Assembly (NCBI GenBank): GCA_029940475.1
Contig: JAPYUT010000011.1
Coordinates: 5,103-69,102 of the forward strand
Length of the DNA: 64,000 bases
Source of the DNA: Verrucomicrobiales bacterium
GTDB lineage: Bacteria; Verrucomicrobiota; Verrucomicrobiia; Verrucomicrobiales; DEV007
Direction: 5' to 3'
A program made the translations under genes and the position numbers. Under the pieces are notes generated by a model that was not told where the DNA came from, ran no database searches, and saw only the letters and a program-made list of their open reading frames with translations. Below, piece by piece: positions 9,777 through 15,211 of the stretch. Position 1 is the first letter of the stretch; each line of letters opens with the position of its first letter.

Positions 9777-10268
9777 TCACCCCGCCAGCTCATTGAGCTT
9801 GGCCTTGATGTCCGTGAAACTGGGCAATTCACCGGGATTATCATTGCTCTCGGCGTATTGAATGATGCCCTGGGCATCGATTACAAAGGCTGAGCGCTTG
9901 GGTACACCTCCCATGTTGAGGTTCTTGTCCGGCAGGAAACTCTCGTAGGCGATGCCATAGGCACTGGCGACATCGTGCTCGTAATCACTGGCAAGGGTGA
10001 TCCCGATTCCCTCCTTTTCTGCCCAGGCAGCCTGTGCGAATGGATTGTCCCCACTGATGGCAATGACTTTAGCGCCGAGCGCCTCGTATTCGGAGAGTTC
10101 GCTGGTGACGCTGCAAAGCTCCTTGGTGCATACGCCGGTGAAAGCCATGGGGACGAATAGCAGCACGACCGGGCTGCCGCTGTTTTCCGACAGGCTGATA
10201 TGCACCGGGCCGTCCTCGGCAAGGGTTGTCAGTTTGAAATCCGGTGCGCTGTCTCCAATATTAAGCAT
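9777..10268 (-). CDS. Peroxiredoxin (AhpC/TSA family, BCP-like)
   Basis: This is a thiol peroxidase of 163 residues that reduces peroxides. The motif PMAFTGVCTKELC places the peroxidatic Cys at 47. A second Cys at 52, five residues later, is the usual position of the resolving Cys in atypical 2-Cys BCP-type enzymes. Other family features are the opening GDSAPDFKL and the central VIAISGDNPFAQAAWAE. The start at 10268 is chosen because family homology begins exactly at MLNIGDSAPDF. Its start is about 80 bases from the divergent nitroreductase. It ends 14 bases from the convergent CotH gene. Confidence 0.92.
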   Translation of the reverse strand: MLNIGDSAPDFKLTTLAEDGPVHISLSENSGSPVVLLFVPMAFTGVCTKELCSVTSELSEYEALGAKVIAISGDNPFAQAAWAEKEGIGITLASDYEHDVASAYGIAYESFLPDKNLNMGGVPKRSAFVIDAQGIIQYAESNDNPGELPSFTDIKAKLNELAG

Positions 10269-10345
10269 TGTTTTCTGGTGGTTGAGTCTTTGGTTGGAGG
10301 CGAGTATATGGAGCGTTAAACGCATCGTCAACCCTTTCAACTGCA

Positions 10346-10969
10346 ATGCCTGAGATTCTTCCCGTCAGCAAAATTATCCGCAATCGCCGCACGGTAAAGC
10401 CCGCCGTCATGGACCCGCAACTGGAAGTGCCCCGGGACTTGATCGAAGAATTGTTCGAGAACGCGAACTGGGCGCCAACACATGGCTTTACCGAGCCCTG
10501 GCGATTCAAGGTGTTTACCGGGGATGCGCGGCAGCAACTTGCCTCGCAGTTGCAGCAACTCTACTGCGAGCACACTCCTGAAGGGCAGTTCAGGCAGGAT
10601 AAGCTGGACAAGCTCGGCCGCAATCCCCTGCTCGCACCGGTGGTCATTGCCATTTGCATGAGGCGGGGAGATAACCCGAAAATTCCCGTTATTGAGGAGG
10701 TTGAGTCGGTCGCATGCGCAGTGCAGAATATGCACCTTACGGCTGCCGCGGCGGGGCTGGGGGCATTCTGGTCATCCCCCCAGGTTCTTGATACCGGAGG
10801 CATGCGCAGTTTCCTGGGCTTAAGGGAAGAGGATTGCTGCCTCGGCTTGTTTTATCTGGGATGGCTCAAGGAGGGCGAGAGGTGGCCGGAAAGCAGCCGT
10901 CACCCGGTGGCAGAAAAGGTGGAGTGGATTAAATGCTCCGGCAGCGGGGCGCTACCGGATATTCCTTAA
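10346..10969 (+). CDS. Nitroreductase-family FMN oxidoreductase
   Basis: This protein of 207 residues has the nitroreductase fold. The N-terminal IIRNRRTVKP and the following NWAPTHGFTEPWRF match the FMN-binding Arg and loop motifs of the YdjA-like subgroup. The later AAAAGLGAFWSSP and FLGLREEDCCLGLFYLGW match the second FMN/NAD(P)H segment. Such enzymes reduce nitro compounds or quinones with NAD(P)H, but the physiological substrate cannot be read from sequence. It is divergent from the peroxiredoxin, which would fit a shared redox role, though this is inference. No Shine-Dalgarno sequence precedes the ATG. Confidence 0.88.
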   Translation: MPEILPVSKIIRNRRTVKPAVMDPQLEVPRDLIEELFENANWAPTHGFTEPWRFKVFTGDARQQLASQLQQLYCEHTPEGQFRQDKLDKLGRNPLLAPVVIAICMRRGDNPKIPVIEEVESVACAVQNMHLTAAAAGLGAFWSSPQVLDTGGMRSFLGLREEDCCLGLFYLGWLKEGERWPESSRHPVAEKVEWIKCSGSGALPDIP

Positions 10970-11011
10970 TGCAGGGATAGTAGTGGCGATTTTTCTGTTA
11001 TTGTTCACGGC

Positions 11012-11040
11012 TTGATAAGTTGCCTTTTTGCCCCGATACT
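11012..11040 (+). promoter_or_regulatory. Probable sigma-70 promoter of the RNase P RNA
   Basis: TTGATA at 11012-11017 is separated by 17 bases from GATACT at 11035-11040. The -35 box matches consensus at five of six positions and the -10 box at four. Transcription would start about seven bases downstream, which coincides with the predicted 5' strand of helix P1 of the RNase P RNA at 11045. Confidence 0.5.
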
Positions 11041-11042
11041 CC

Positions 11043-11465
11043 GGGTGGATGTGCCTGAGACGGTCGCCTGTCGGTTCGCCGGCGGGAGGAAAGTCCGGAC
11101 ACCATAAGGCAGTGCCGCCGTATGAAAGTGCGGGCGGTCGGCGTGAAAGCGCCGGCTGACGGAAAGTGTCGCAGAAAATATACCGCCCGCCGGAGCGTTT
11201 GCCGAGGCGGGTAAGGGTGAAATGGTGGGGTAAGAGCCCACCGCCCCGAGGGTGACCGAGGGGGCACGACAAACCCCGTGCGGTGCAAGACAGAACAGGG
11301 AGAACGGGTTGCCTGCCCGGTTCCGCGAGAGCGGTATGTTCCTGGGTAATAGTCGCAGCTGTGCTTCGGCCGGCTCCTCCCTGGCCTTTGGTCAGGGGGG
11401 GAGATAAATGACCGTTACCCGCCGATGGCGGGGACAGAATCCGGCTTATGACGGTACATCCGCTT
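11043..11465 (+). ncRNA. rnpB: RNase P RNA, bacterial type A
   Basis: This is the catalytic RNA that trims tRNA 5' leaders. The universally conserved P4 strand GAGGAAAGTCCGGAC is at 11086-11100 and its partner ACAGAATCCGGCTTAT is at 11434-11449. In between are other hallmark pieces: GGTAAGGGTGAAATGGTGGG and TAAGAGCCCACCGC, then GACAAACCCCGTGCGGTGCA and AGACAGAACAGGG. The termini pair as helix P1: GTGGATGTGCC (11045-11055) with GGTACATCCGC (11453-11463). The length of about 420 nt fits type A. A promoter lies directly upstream and an intrinsic terminator directly downstream. Reading frames across it should be ignored. Confidence 0.95.
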
Positions 11466-11471
11466 TTATGA

Positions 11472-11511
11472 CGCCCCGGTTCGCGGAGACGCGGGCCGGG
11501 GCGGCTTTTTT
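11472..11511 (+). terminator. Intrinsic terminator after the RNase P RNA
   Basis: CGCCCCGG (11472-11479) pairs perfectly with CCGGGGCG (11496-11503), and the stem is followed by GCTTTTTT. It sits nine bases after the 3' strand of P1 and is the expected rnpB terminator. Confidence 0.85.
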
Positions 11512-11600
11512 ACAGCAGGTATATGTATTTGGCGGGGGTAAGAGGCTGGCCGGAGAGGGGGTCGGCTACCACTTGCCCTTGGGATCACCTGCCTTTATTG

Positions 11601-11606
11601 AGGAGG
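11601..11606 (+). promoter_or_regulatory. Shine-Dalgarno sequence deciding the fabV start
   Basis: A perfect AGGAGG lies three bases before the ATG at 11610. This is unusual in the window, where most starts have no such match. It supports 11610 rather than the upstream in-frame ATG at 11523. Confidence 0.6.
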
Positions 11607-11609
11607 ATC

Positions 11610-12797
11610 ATGATTATTGTCCCGAAGACCCGAGGATTCATCTGTACTACGGCGCATCCTGATGGTTGCGCGGCGCATGTCCAGGAGCAGATTGATCACG
11701 TCAGGTCCCGTCCGCAGCCCGGCAATATGCCAAAGAACGTACTGGTTGTTGGCGCATCGACCGGTTACGGGTTGGCGTCGCGAATTGTCCCTGCTTTCTC
11801 CGGCGGTGCGTCCACGCTGGGCGTGTTTTTTGAGAAGCCTCCGACTGAGCGCAAGACGGCCAGTGCGGGTTGGTATAACAGCGCTGCTCTTGAGGCGGCG
11901 GCGCGTGCCGATGGACTGTATGCCAGGAGCATCAATGGTGACGCTTTTTCCGGGGAAATAAAGCGTCGCGCAATCAGGGAGATCAGTGCCTCCATGGGGC
12001 CGATCGACTGTGTTGTCTATTCCCTGGCTTCACCCCGTCGCACGGATCCGCAAAGCGGTGAGGTCTACAGGTCCTGCCTGAAGCCGATCGGGCAAACCTA
12101 CACGCAGAAGAACATCAATACCGACAAGGCGGAGGTTGACGAGGTAACCATCGAGTCTGCCAGTGACGAGGAGATTGCCGGCACTGTGAAGGTGATGGGG
12201 GGAGAGGACTGGGAGCTCTGGATTGATGCCTTGCTGGAAGCGGGAGTTCTCGCCGATGGCGCCACCAGTGTTGCCTACTCCTACATAGGTCCGGAACTTA
12301 CCTGGCCGATCTACAAGGAGGGAACGATTGGACGTGCCAAGATTCATCTTGAGGAAAGTTGCGCCCGCATCAGGGGGAAACTTGAATCAACAGGGGGTCG
12401 TGCCTTTGTCTCAGTCAATAAAGCGGTCGTGACACAGGCCAGTTCCGCCATTCCCGTGGTGCCGCTCTATATCTCTATCCTTTTCAAGAAGATGAAGGAG
12501 GAAGGCCTGCATGAGGATTGCATTGAGCAAATTCAGCGCATGTTTGCCGATCACCTGGATAATGGCACCCAACTTGATGATGCCGGGCGCATTCGTCTTG
12601 ATGACCGGGAGATGCGTGAGGATATCCAGGCGCATGTCGCCGGGGTGTGGCAGCAGATAACGAGCGGGAACCTGCGTGAATTGTCCGATTTTGAAGGTTA
12701 CCGGAAAAATTTTCTCAAATTGTTCGGTTTTGGTTTGGCAGGTGTTGATTATGACGCCGAGAGCGATCCGTTGCGCAGCGTGGACCTGGTCGAGTAG
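11610..12797 (+). CDS. fabV: Trans-2-enoyl-ACP/CoA reductase, FabV type
   Basis: This is an NADH-dependent enoyl reductase that performs the last step of a fatty-acid elongation cycle, 395 residues. It opens with the FabV-typical MIIVPKTRGFICTTAHPDGC. It has the nucleotide-binding loop VVGASTGYGLASRI (about 47-60) and WYN at 88-90. The catalytic pair Tyr235 and Lys244 sits in IYKEGTIGRAK. With the chosen start these residues fall at the published Y-x8-K numbering of FabV, which supports 11610 as start. FabV proteins are known to be much less sensitive to triclosan than FabI. It is preceded by rnpB and followed by the dgkA remnant. Confidence 0.95.
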   Translation: MIIVPKTRGFICTTAHPDGCAAHVQEQIDHVRSRPQPGNMPKNVLVVGASTGYGLASRIVPAFSGGASTLGVFFEKPPTERKTASAGWYNSAALEAAARADGLYARSINGDAFSGEIKRRAIREISASMGPIDCVVYSLASPRRTDPQSGEVYRSCLKPIGQTYTQKNINTDKAEVDEVTIESASDEEIAGTVKVMGGEDWELWIDALLEAGVLADGATSVAYSYIGPELTWPIYKEGTIGRAKIHLEESCARIRGKLESTGGRAFVSVNKAVVTQASSAIPVVPLYISILFKKMKEEGLHEDCIEQIQRMFADHLDNGTQLDDAGRIRLDDREMREDIQAHVAGVWQQITSGNLRELSDFEGYRKNFLKLFGFGLAGVDYDAESDPLRSVDLVE

Positions 12798-12805
12798 TGC
12801 TGGTA

Positions 12806-12952
12806 ATGGCAAATCAGGTATATGTCGTGCATCCGGAGCGCCAGCCACATATCGGCAGGGTTAAGGATATGGCCGCAGGTGCGGTATTAATCGCGGCGAT
12901 TGCGGCTGGGTGTGTCGGGATTATGATCTTTCTGCCAAAGCTTATTTCATGA
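12806..12952 (+). pseudogene. dgkA: Remnant of a diacylglycerol/undecaprenol kinase (C-terminal part only)
   Basis: A 48-codon frame encodes the C-terminal end of a DgkA-type membrane kinase. HPERQPHIGRVKDMAAGAVL contains the conserved (A/G)KDxAAGAVL motif, and the final helix AAIAAGCVGIMIFLPKL is the last transmembrane helix. Complete DgkA proteins have about 110-130 residues with three helices. The N-terminal half, including the Glu-rich active-site helix, is missing because the fabV stop lies only nine bases upstream. The frame ends in ATGA, overlapping the glcD start at 12949. It is therefore either a deletion relic or a short membrane peptide translationally coupled to glcD. Catalytic activity is not expected. 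Confidence 0.7.
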
Positions 12953-14325
12953 ATTGCCCCGAACTGGTTGAATCACTCACTGCGCTGCTCGGTGCGGACA
13001 AGGTTTCCGCAGCGCAAGCCGTGATTGAGGATCACAGCATCGACAAATGGCTGGTTGGGCATCCGCCCGATGTGGTGGTGTTTGCCGGGTCCACCGCCGA
13101 TGTTGTCGCGGTGATGAAGTTTGCATCAGCACAGGGGGTTGCGGTCACAACCCGCGGTGCGGGGGTCGGCTACGTTGGAGGAGCGGTGCCGATGACCGGG
13201 GGCATTGTGATTTCCGTTGCGCGCATGACTGCGATCAGGGAAATCAACACTGCCGATGGAGTGGCAATCGTTGAGCCCGGGGTAATTACCGGCGATTTGC
13301 AGGATGCGGTGCGCAAGCTCGGCTGGTTTTATCCGCCTGACCCGGCGAGCCTCAAGGAGTGCAGCATCGGCGGCAATGTCGCGACCAATGCCGGCGGGCC
13401 GCATTGCCTCAAGTACGGGGTTACGCGCCACTACATACTTGGCCTTGAGGTGGTGCTTGCTGACGGCAGCGTGGCAAAACTGGGAGGCCGCTGCCACAAG
13501 GACAAGACCGGCTTTGACTTGATCGGCATGTTTGTCGGGTCCGAGGGCCTGCTGGGGATCGTGACTGAAATCACCTGCCGGCTTATTCCGCATCCGCCGG
13601 CACGGGCGATGGCATCAGCGAGCTTCGCCTCCTTTGCCGAGGCCGCCGCCGCGGTCCAGGAAATCCTCGGTGCGGGATTCCTGCCGGCGGCTCTGGAAAT
13701 CTCCGACAAGTTCACCCTCGGGGCAGCACGTGACCATGTGGGATCAGAGCTGATCCCTGACGGGGAGTCCCATCTGCTGGTCGAGATTGACGGCCAGGCC
13801 GGGTCCGTCAATTCCGAGACCAGGGCGGTGGTTTCACTGTTACGGGACCTTGGCTGCCTGTCCCTTGAAACCGCGGAGGATGAGGCCGGTTGTGAGGCGA
13901 TCTGGGAGATCCGGCGCGCATTCAGCTACAGCCTGCGCGCGACGGGTCTCACCAAGCTTAATGAGGATATTGTCGTGCCGCGTGGCAAGCTGGTGGAACT
14001 GGTGGCTTTCTGTGAGCGCCTGCAGGATGAATGCGGGATGCCCATTGCCTGTTTCGGGCATGCCGGGGACGGCAATATTCATGTCAATATCATGGTGGAC
14101 GGCATCGATGACCCGGCGGTGCGCGCCCGCTCGGATGAGGCGCTGGACACCCTGTTCAAGGCCGTGCTGGACCTTGGCGGCACGATCAGTGGTGAGCACG
14201 GTATCGGCATTGCCAAGAAACGCTGGTTTGAGGAGGCCCTTGATCCCGGGGCCCTTGACCTGCACCGGCGCTTGAAGACTGTCCTTGATCCTGACGGCAT
14301 TCTCAACCCCGGGAAGTTTGTTTGA
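12949..14325 (+). CDS. glcD: FAD-linked oxidase, GlcD / D-lactate dehydrogenase type
   Basis: This is a flavoprotein of 458 residues that oxidises 2-hydroxy acids such as glycolate or D-lactate. The N-terminal FAD-binding domain shows TTRGAGVGYVGGAVP and PDPASLKECSIGGNVATNAG followed by KYGVTRHY. The C-terminal substrate/FAD domain has CFGHAGDGNIHVN and SGEHGIGIAKKRW, both hallmark His-containing motifs. Family knowledge cannot separate glycolate from D-lactate here, and no GlcE or GlcF partner is present. The ATG overlaps the stop of the dgkA remnant (ATGA), suggesting translational coupling. A longer start at 12910 would overlap that frame and lacks homology. Confidence 0.88.
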   Translation: MNCPELVESLTALLGADKVSAAQAVIEDHSIDKWLVGHPPDVVVFAGSTADVVAVMKFASAQGVAVTTRGAGVGYVGGAVPMTGGIVISVARMTAIREINTADGVAIVEPGVITGDLQDAVRKLGWFYPPDPASLKECSIGGNVATNAGGPHCLKYGVTRHYILGLEVVLADGSVAKLGGRCHKDKTGFDLIGMFVGSEGLLGIVTEITCRLIPHPPARAMASASFASFAEAAAAVQEILGAGFLPAALEISDKFTLGAARDHVGSELIPDGESHLLVEIDGQAGSVNSETRAVVSLLRDLGCLSLETAEDEAGCEAIWEIRRAFSYSLRATGLTKLNEDIVVPRGKLVELVAFCERLQDECGMPIACFGHAGDGNIHVNIMVDGIDDPAVRARSDEALDTLFKAVLDLGGTISGEHGIGIAKKRWFEEALDPGALDLHRRLKTVLDPDGILNPGKFV

Positions 14326-14359
14326 GCAGGCCTTCCGGGTGTGTCAGGGTTGATGAGGA

Positions 14360-15211
14360 ATGAAAACACTTTTTTTTACAATATGGATGCTCGGGATTAT
14401 CCCGGTCGCCGGTGCACCGCTGGAGGTCGACGCGCTGACTTTCAACATCCGTTACGACAACCCTAAGGATGGCAAGGATGCCTGGCCCAAGCGGCAGGAA
14501 ATGGTCGGGCAGTGGCTGCACAAGCAGTCACCGGACCTTGTCGGGCTGCAGGAGGCAAAGCGCCACCAGGTTGATGACATCCGGAAAATCGCCACGCAGT
14601 ATGCCGAATACGGGGTTGGCCGCGATGACGGCAAAAGCGCGGGTGAGCACTGCACGATTCTCTACAAGGCTGCGCGCTTTGCCCTTGATGCTGCGGACTG
14701 CGGCACCTTCTGGCTGAGTGACACGCCGGAGAAGGTTGCCTCCAAGTCATGGGGCAACGGCATCCCGAGGATCTGCACCTGGGCGCGGCTGGTGGAAAAG
14801 AAAAGCAAGCGGGCCTTCTATATATACAACATCCACTGGGACCACAGGAGCCAGCCCAGCCGCGAGGGTGCGGCAGGGCTCATCATTGAGCGCATCGCAA
14901 AGCGCAGCCACCCGAAAGAGCCGATCATCCTGATGGGTGATTTCAATGCTAATGAGTCCAACCCGGCGATCACGGCACTGAAGGCCAAGCCCTTGGGCTT
15001 GATTGATTCCTATCGCGTGGTCAAGCCGGAAGAGAAGGCGGTGCGCACCTTCCACGGATTCCGGGGCGGCACGGCGACCGGGAGCAAGATTGACCATGTA
15101 TTCGTGCTGCCCGGGACCGCCACGGTGAAGTCGGCAGCAATCGTGCGCTATCACCGCGATGGGCGTTACCTCTCTGACCATTACCCGGTACGGGCACTGC
15201 TTTTGTTTTGA
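14360..15211 (+). CDS. Secreted endonuclease/exonuclease/phosphatase-fold protein
   Basis: This is a 283-residue protein with a short signal peptide (FFTIWMLGIIPVAGA) and a complete EEP-superfamily metallohydrolase domain. Motifs in order are LTFNIRYDN, LVGLQEAKR (metal-binding Glu), NIHWDH, ILMGDFNANES (metal/catalytic Asp-Asn) and, at the end, KIDHVFV and SDHYPVRA (catalytic Asp-His). In secreted forms this fold serves as nuclease, sphingomyelinase or sugar-phosphate phosphatase. The NIRYDNPKDG opening resembles secreted EEP proteins from polysaccharide-degrading bacteria. The substrate cannot be assigned. Confidence 0.88.
   Translation: MKTLFFTIWMLGIIPVAGAPLEVDALTFNIRYDNPKDGKDAWPKRQEMVGQWLHKQSPDLVGLQEAKRHQVDDIRKIATQYAEYGVGRDDGKSAGEHCTILYKAARFALDAADCGTFWLSDTPEKVASKSWGNGIPRICTWARLVEKKSKRAFYIYNIHWDHRSQPSREGAAGLIIERIAKRSHPKEPIILMGDFNANESNPAITALKAKPLGLIDSYRVVKPEEKAVRTFHGFRGGTATGSKIDHVFVLPGTATVKSAAIVRYHRDGRYLSDHYPVRALLLF

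Follow-up and report, generated by a model that had tools for sequence, protein, structure and literature searches.

Introduction

In the Escherichia coli diacylglycerol kinase DgkA, catalysis is putatively assigned to Glu69, the metal-bound phosphates are held by Glu28 and Glu76, Asn72 is essential and Asp80 holds Lys94, according to the part of the published account that deals with these residues (PMC4703834). Within the window, a stretch of 64,000 nucleotides from a Verrucomicrobiales bacterium, the locus related to this protein family (PF01219) consists of 42 codons, which align with the C-terminal part of DgkA including the Lys-Asp pair. Unlike DgkA, the locus lacks everything before approximately the equivalent of residue 81, including the glutamate and the metal-linked residues to which that part of the account assigns the catalytic roles.

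Two other kinds of described loci invite comparison. As in pseudogenes eroding by deletion, one and the same locus is found whole, shortened and nearly gone among congeners, although the residual frame in the window is open and overlaps the next gene. As in operons with stop/start coupling, the window has an ATGA overlap, whereas the short frame is not retained in the closest congener, G002. Among the literature titles listed, a truncated dgkA adjoining glcD was not found.

Results

The short open frame (12806-12952) lies, as the preliminary description had placed it, between fabV, whose stop ends at 12797, and a glcD-like gene starting at 12949. The upstream neighbour fabV (11610..12797, + strand) encodes an enoyl-ACP reductase of 395 amino acids when read from the ATG at 11610; its NF043048 match of 611 bits and three Pfam domains were scored on a longer frame, 11523-12797, and the FabV homologues in relatives align over up to 395 amino acids. 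The downstream neighbour (12949..14325, + strand) is an intact frame for an FAD-linked oxidase with the PF01565 and PF02913 domains, and since its product scores 408.7 bits against TIGR00387, under the equivalog cut-off of 567.9, the name glcD serves here as a family label and not as an equivalog call. A second GlcD-like protein, 36% identical, is encoded in the same genome at G000:C93:34397-35650 (L037).

RNase P RNA (RF00010, 188.8 bits) directly precedes fabV at 11048-11464, and to its 3′ side lies a terminator-like hairpin with a T run (11472-11503, 14 pairs), the longest of four such sites found against 3.0 expected from shuffling; a similar hairpin and T run was seen by eye upstream of fabV in G002 (L034). 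Promoter-like sites in 11300-14700 numbered 0, against 1.0 expected. In 10000-15000 the RNase P RNA is the sole Rfam match at the gathering score, with none in the dgkA junction, and the RNA fold of 12780-12990 has no advantage over that of shuffled sequences (z 0.74); a structured RNA in the junction was rejected on these grounds.

The short frame comprises 48 codons and a TGA stop, and its translation is uninterrupted, in agreement with the earlier statement that no decay is seen within it; a GTG at 12797 offers an alternative start that would lengthen it to 51 amino acids. The profile PF01219 (DAGK_prokar) matches the frame at E 8.8e-10 and 38.8 bits, the Pfam gathering score being 22.3, and this E value excludes a chance match; none of the NCBIfam models matches at E <= 1. 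What exceeds the gathering score is a match of frame residues 6-42 to profile positions 66-102 of 102, and with positions 1-65 the catalytic and metal-linked residues of a full-length domain are missing. The preliminary description had taken all 48 codons as the end of a DgkA-like gene. The remnant as such is supported by the profile, but its extent is smaller: whole DgkA proteins of relatives align with residues 7-48, the first six residues being without DgkA similarity, so that about 42 codons, not 48, represent dgkA (12824..12949, + strand), closed by the TGA at 12950..12952 (+ strand). The first six codons of the frame look like former spacer. From the end of fabV to the first codon that can be recognised as dgkA there are 26 nt (12798..12823, + strand), which carry the ATG at 12806 that opens the short frame. 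They would probably derive from the left-hand portion of the spacer that once separated the two genes; they align with the spacers of relatives no better than shuffles do.

A phmmer comparison aligns residues 14-36 of the frame weakly (E 1.2) with residues 88-110 of the E. coli DgkA chain 2kdc, with Lys-Asp 94-95 in register. In the register of this weak alignment the remnant begins at about the equivalent of E. coli residue 81 and retains the equivalents of Lys94 and Asp95, and those of Glu28, Glu69, Asn72, Glu76 and Asp80, the residues named in the relevant part of the E. coli account, all fall within the lost part. To judge from its sequence, the remnant alone could not be a kinase. It presumably contains the last membrane helix of DgkA as its one helix, two of what we take to be three membrane helices in the kinase being gone.

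The genus sample consists of four genomes, namely the one that holds the window (G000), G001, G002 and G003. In G003, fabV, a whole dgkA and glcD follow in this order, with 460 nt from the fabV stop to the glcD ATG and the dgkA stop 20 nt before that ATG. G001 has fabV and dgkA codons 1-64 (84% identity to G003), after which the contig ends; a glcD orthologue was not found in this genome, where the best candidate is a 36% identical relative. The distance from the fabV stop to the glcD ATG is 151 nt in the window and 51 nt in G002, in which the glcD frame is intact and 32 of the 51 nt align with the end of the remnant, 24 of the 32 bases being equal. The relict in G002 amounts to about 10 codons of dgkA, with a TAA immediately before it and, by eye, no ATG, GTG or TTG inside. 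G002 is the nearest congener both by GlcD, its orthologue being 91% identical to that of the window against 86% for G003, and by FabV (87%, against 83% for G003 and 83% for G001).

Measured from the fabV stop to the first dgkA codons that both share, the window has 26 nt where G003 has 299, a shortfall of 273 nt. The spacers of G001 and G003 align better than shuffles, with 0 of 500 shuffles as good, and the left spacers of the window and G002 no better than shuffles (P 0.13), a comparison of little power because the G002 side has just 19 nt. A locus that is whole in G003 is thus disrupted here, with 42 codons left in the window and about 10 in G002, and the whole dgkA genes that relatives carry at the same place upstream of glcD agree with the initial reading of the frame as a remnant. 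The dgkA stretch in 12806-12952 is very probably a pseudogene, an ordinary eroding gene. That the real dgkA is whole and the assembler dropped some 273 nt is extremely unlikely: the assembly is fragmented (130 contigs, 92% complete), which would leave room for such an error, but the flanking genes are intact and continuous, and the assembly of another species, G002, is also shortened at this place and has no other dgkA match.

The preliminary description had further called for a search for another intact dgkA in the assembly, and none was found. In this genome PF01219 has a single match, C-terminal only, at the 12806-12952 locus, and the whole DgkA of G003 as a query recovers at E <= 10 the remnant locus alone, without any N-terminal piece, on which ground a split or trans-complementing kinase was rejected. 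In G002 neither PF01219 nor the whole G003 DgkA gives a match, the latter search having been run without a control, and the 48-residue peptide has one match (E 0.744) elsewhere, in a 231-residue frame (L029), that was taken as chance. In G001, where the contig ends before the corresponding part of dgkA, the peptide has no match. Because the assemblies of the window's genome and of G002 are 92% and 94% complete, respectively, the absence of another dgkA is likely and not proven. Compensation by a soluble lipid kinase was also rejected: PF00781 occurs once in each of the four genus genomes and does not track the loss of dgkA, since there is one copy whether dgkA is whole or not. Likewise, a comparison of 12 genomes gave no clear link between the loss and absent periplasmic glucan synthesis (MdoG, PF04349), this domain being absent from 4/4 genus genomes and 4/4 genomes of genus g4, and also from the dgkA-keeping G018 and G013, and present in G015 and G004.

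In the family as a whole (74 genomes, the window's included), PF01219 matches 59 genomes, and G002 is among those without a match. The matches start at profile positions 1-3, except in G012 (14, contig end), G071 (9) and the window's genome (65), and they end at position 101 or 102, except in G001 (2-60) and in the second match of G084 (2-42), both of which lie at contig ends; the window's genome is the sole one of the 74 with a C-terminal-only match. A wider contig search with the 48-residue peptide returned at least 76 loci, the titles among the matches listed being those of other groups; this search may omit records near the window's genome.

The dgkA locus could be examined in 39 family genomes besides the window's own, the further matches having no locus and G001 being treated apart. 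A glcD match lies just downstream of dgkA in 34 of the 39 and not in G012, G023, G007, G005 and G009, each with at least about 1 kb of downstream sequence in view; fabV is directly upstream in 10 of the 39 (G003, G016, G017, G018, G069 and G072-G076). In dgkA loci from other families of the order, glcD is downstream in 0/6. With G083 left out of the overlap and identity counts owing to unknown bases in the frame, 33 of the 34 loci remain, and in 27 of these the end of dgkA and the inferred start of glcD share 4 to 49 nt, the other six being without overlap (starts were chosen mechanically, with GTG and TTG allowed).

Among the 14 family genomes without PF01219 that were searched for glcD, six have matches at E <= 1e-100 and eight, mostly incomplete, have none. 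The six comprise 4/4 genomes of genus g4 (G006, G022, G078 and G079; 64-65% identity), G053 (59%) and G024 (40%), the last of which is perhaps another paralogue. The whole G003 DgkA finds nothing at E <= 1e-4 at these six glcD loci, and reading three frames by eye, over as much as 700 nt ahead of glcD, revealed no DgkA end in G053 or in any of the four g4 genomes. Genus g4 is a separate lineage without dgkA.

These comparisons bear on the suggestion, made at the outset, that the frame survives as a translational-coupling leader whose translation delivers ribosomes to the glcD start. The ATGA on which it was built is present as described, the TGA at 12950-12952 overlapping the ATG at 12949-12951, and the frequency of such overlaps in loci with a whole dgkA makes an ancestral coupling plausible. 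The same frequency indicates, however, that a leader function is not what gave rise to the ATGA; the overlap is, as far as these loci tell, an inherited property of the whole dgkA-glcD pair, and coupling would be its by-product and no reason for the persistence of the frame. Nor is the short frame a conserved feature ahead of the gene that it would couple: going by reading frames, it is absent beside glcD in G002, where the relict has a stop right before it, no start codon inside and an intact glcD after it, and in genus g4, where glcD stands without dgkA. Such an absence was the first half of a refuting outcome named in the preliminary description. Moreover, dgkA in G003 ends before the glcD ATG without touching it, and the fold of the junction is at shuffle level. 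The leader explanation thus conflicts with the relatives, and we regard it as very unlikely.

The 42 codons preserve, without a stop, all 11 positions at which 30 or more of the 33 whole proteins agree; 22 of these 33 themselves keep all 11. When neutral drift is simulated under an HKY-like model (kappa 2, an assumed GC content of 58%, three starting sequences and no indels), the probability that the frame is open with all 11 positions kept is 0.28 for 0.05 substitutions per site, falling to 0.08 at 0.10, 0.026 at 0.15 and 0.0001-0.0002 at 0.39, this last value being half of the GlcD dS between the window and G002 (0.788) and approximately the branch length since their split. It follows from the simulation that an unselected remnant would be younger than about one third of that branch, or else that selection acted, and if the deletion is shared with G002, the keeping of all 11 positions since the split would be very unlikely without selection. 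The fact that the remnant was noticed because it is recognisable softens the argument from the preserved positions. Compared with G003, the 42 codons give a dN of 0.33 and a near-saturated dS of 1.30, and the resulting dN/dS of about 0.25 shows no visible relaxation and probably reflects mostly the history before the deletion. Their identity to G003, 57%, is at the low end for pairs at a GlcD identity of 0.85-0.90 (19 pairs with a mean of 0.70 and a range of 0.55-0.88, GlcD being partial in some), a hint of some additional change in the remnant.

The open frame, the preserved positions and the low dN/dS against G003 are what one would cite for a selected micropeptide, that is, a truncated frame that is translated and whose one membrane helix is maintained by selection, with a role such as that of an interaction partner or of a regulator in the membrane. 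The preserved positions are, however, those conserved in the whole kinase, and a recent deletion yields the same pattern. The closest congener has nearly lost the frame and keeps its glcD frame intact, the other genus genomes have dgkA whole (G003) or cut by a contig end (G001), so that no second genome of the genus is seen with the same frame, and the family offers no other C-terminal-only match. Such a peptide is unlikely in our assessment. It seems similarly improbable that the last helix of the kinase has been domesticated as a selected single-span peptide of 48 amino acids with a spacer-derived start, coupled to the glycolate-oxidase-like gene. For the membrane micropeptide of the preliminary description the sole positive evidence is the intact residues, and a recent deletion accounts for these just as well; the idea is unproven. 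Conservation, simulation and dN/dS do not tell a recent loss apart from a peptide under selection, and loss is favoured because the nearest congener has lost almost all of the gene and no other genome examined carries the frame.

Discussion

Eroding by deletion, the locus would have passed through a few simple steps. We infer that the order fabV-dgkA-glcD with a whole dgkA is ancestral, the end of dgkA presumably overlapping the glcD start or lying near it. A deletion of approximately 273 nt, as measured relative to G003, would then have joined the spacer that follows fabV to dgkA at about codon 71. Most of the catalytic site, as judged by homology to the E. coli enzyme, would have gone with the deleted part, along with two of the three membrane helices. 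An ATG in the spacer that happened to be in frame would have left the frame of 48 codons, and its product, if translated, would span the membrane once and have no kinase activity. The frame being still open, the deletion would be evolutionarily recent, with no nonsense change so far, and G002 would represent a later stage with a larger loss. Both the lack of function and the recency of the deletion are what we infer from these comparisons.

As a pseudogene, the remnant is of a common kind, and it indicates no new mechanism. It illustrates neatly, on a small scale, how a gene inside an operon is lost step by step through deletions, since a single genus shows three states of the gene while the gene after it stays intact. 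The comparison also suggests that dgkA, which adjoins glcD in most of the family genomes examined (34/39), is dispensable in at least two lineages.
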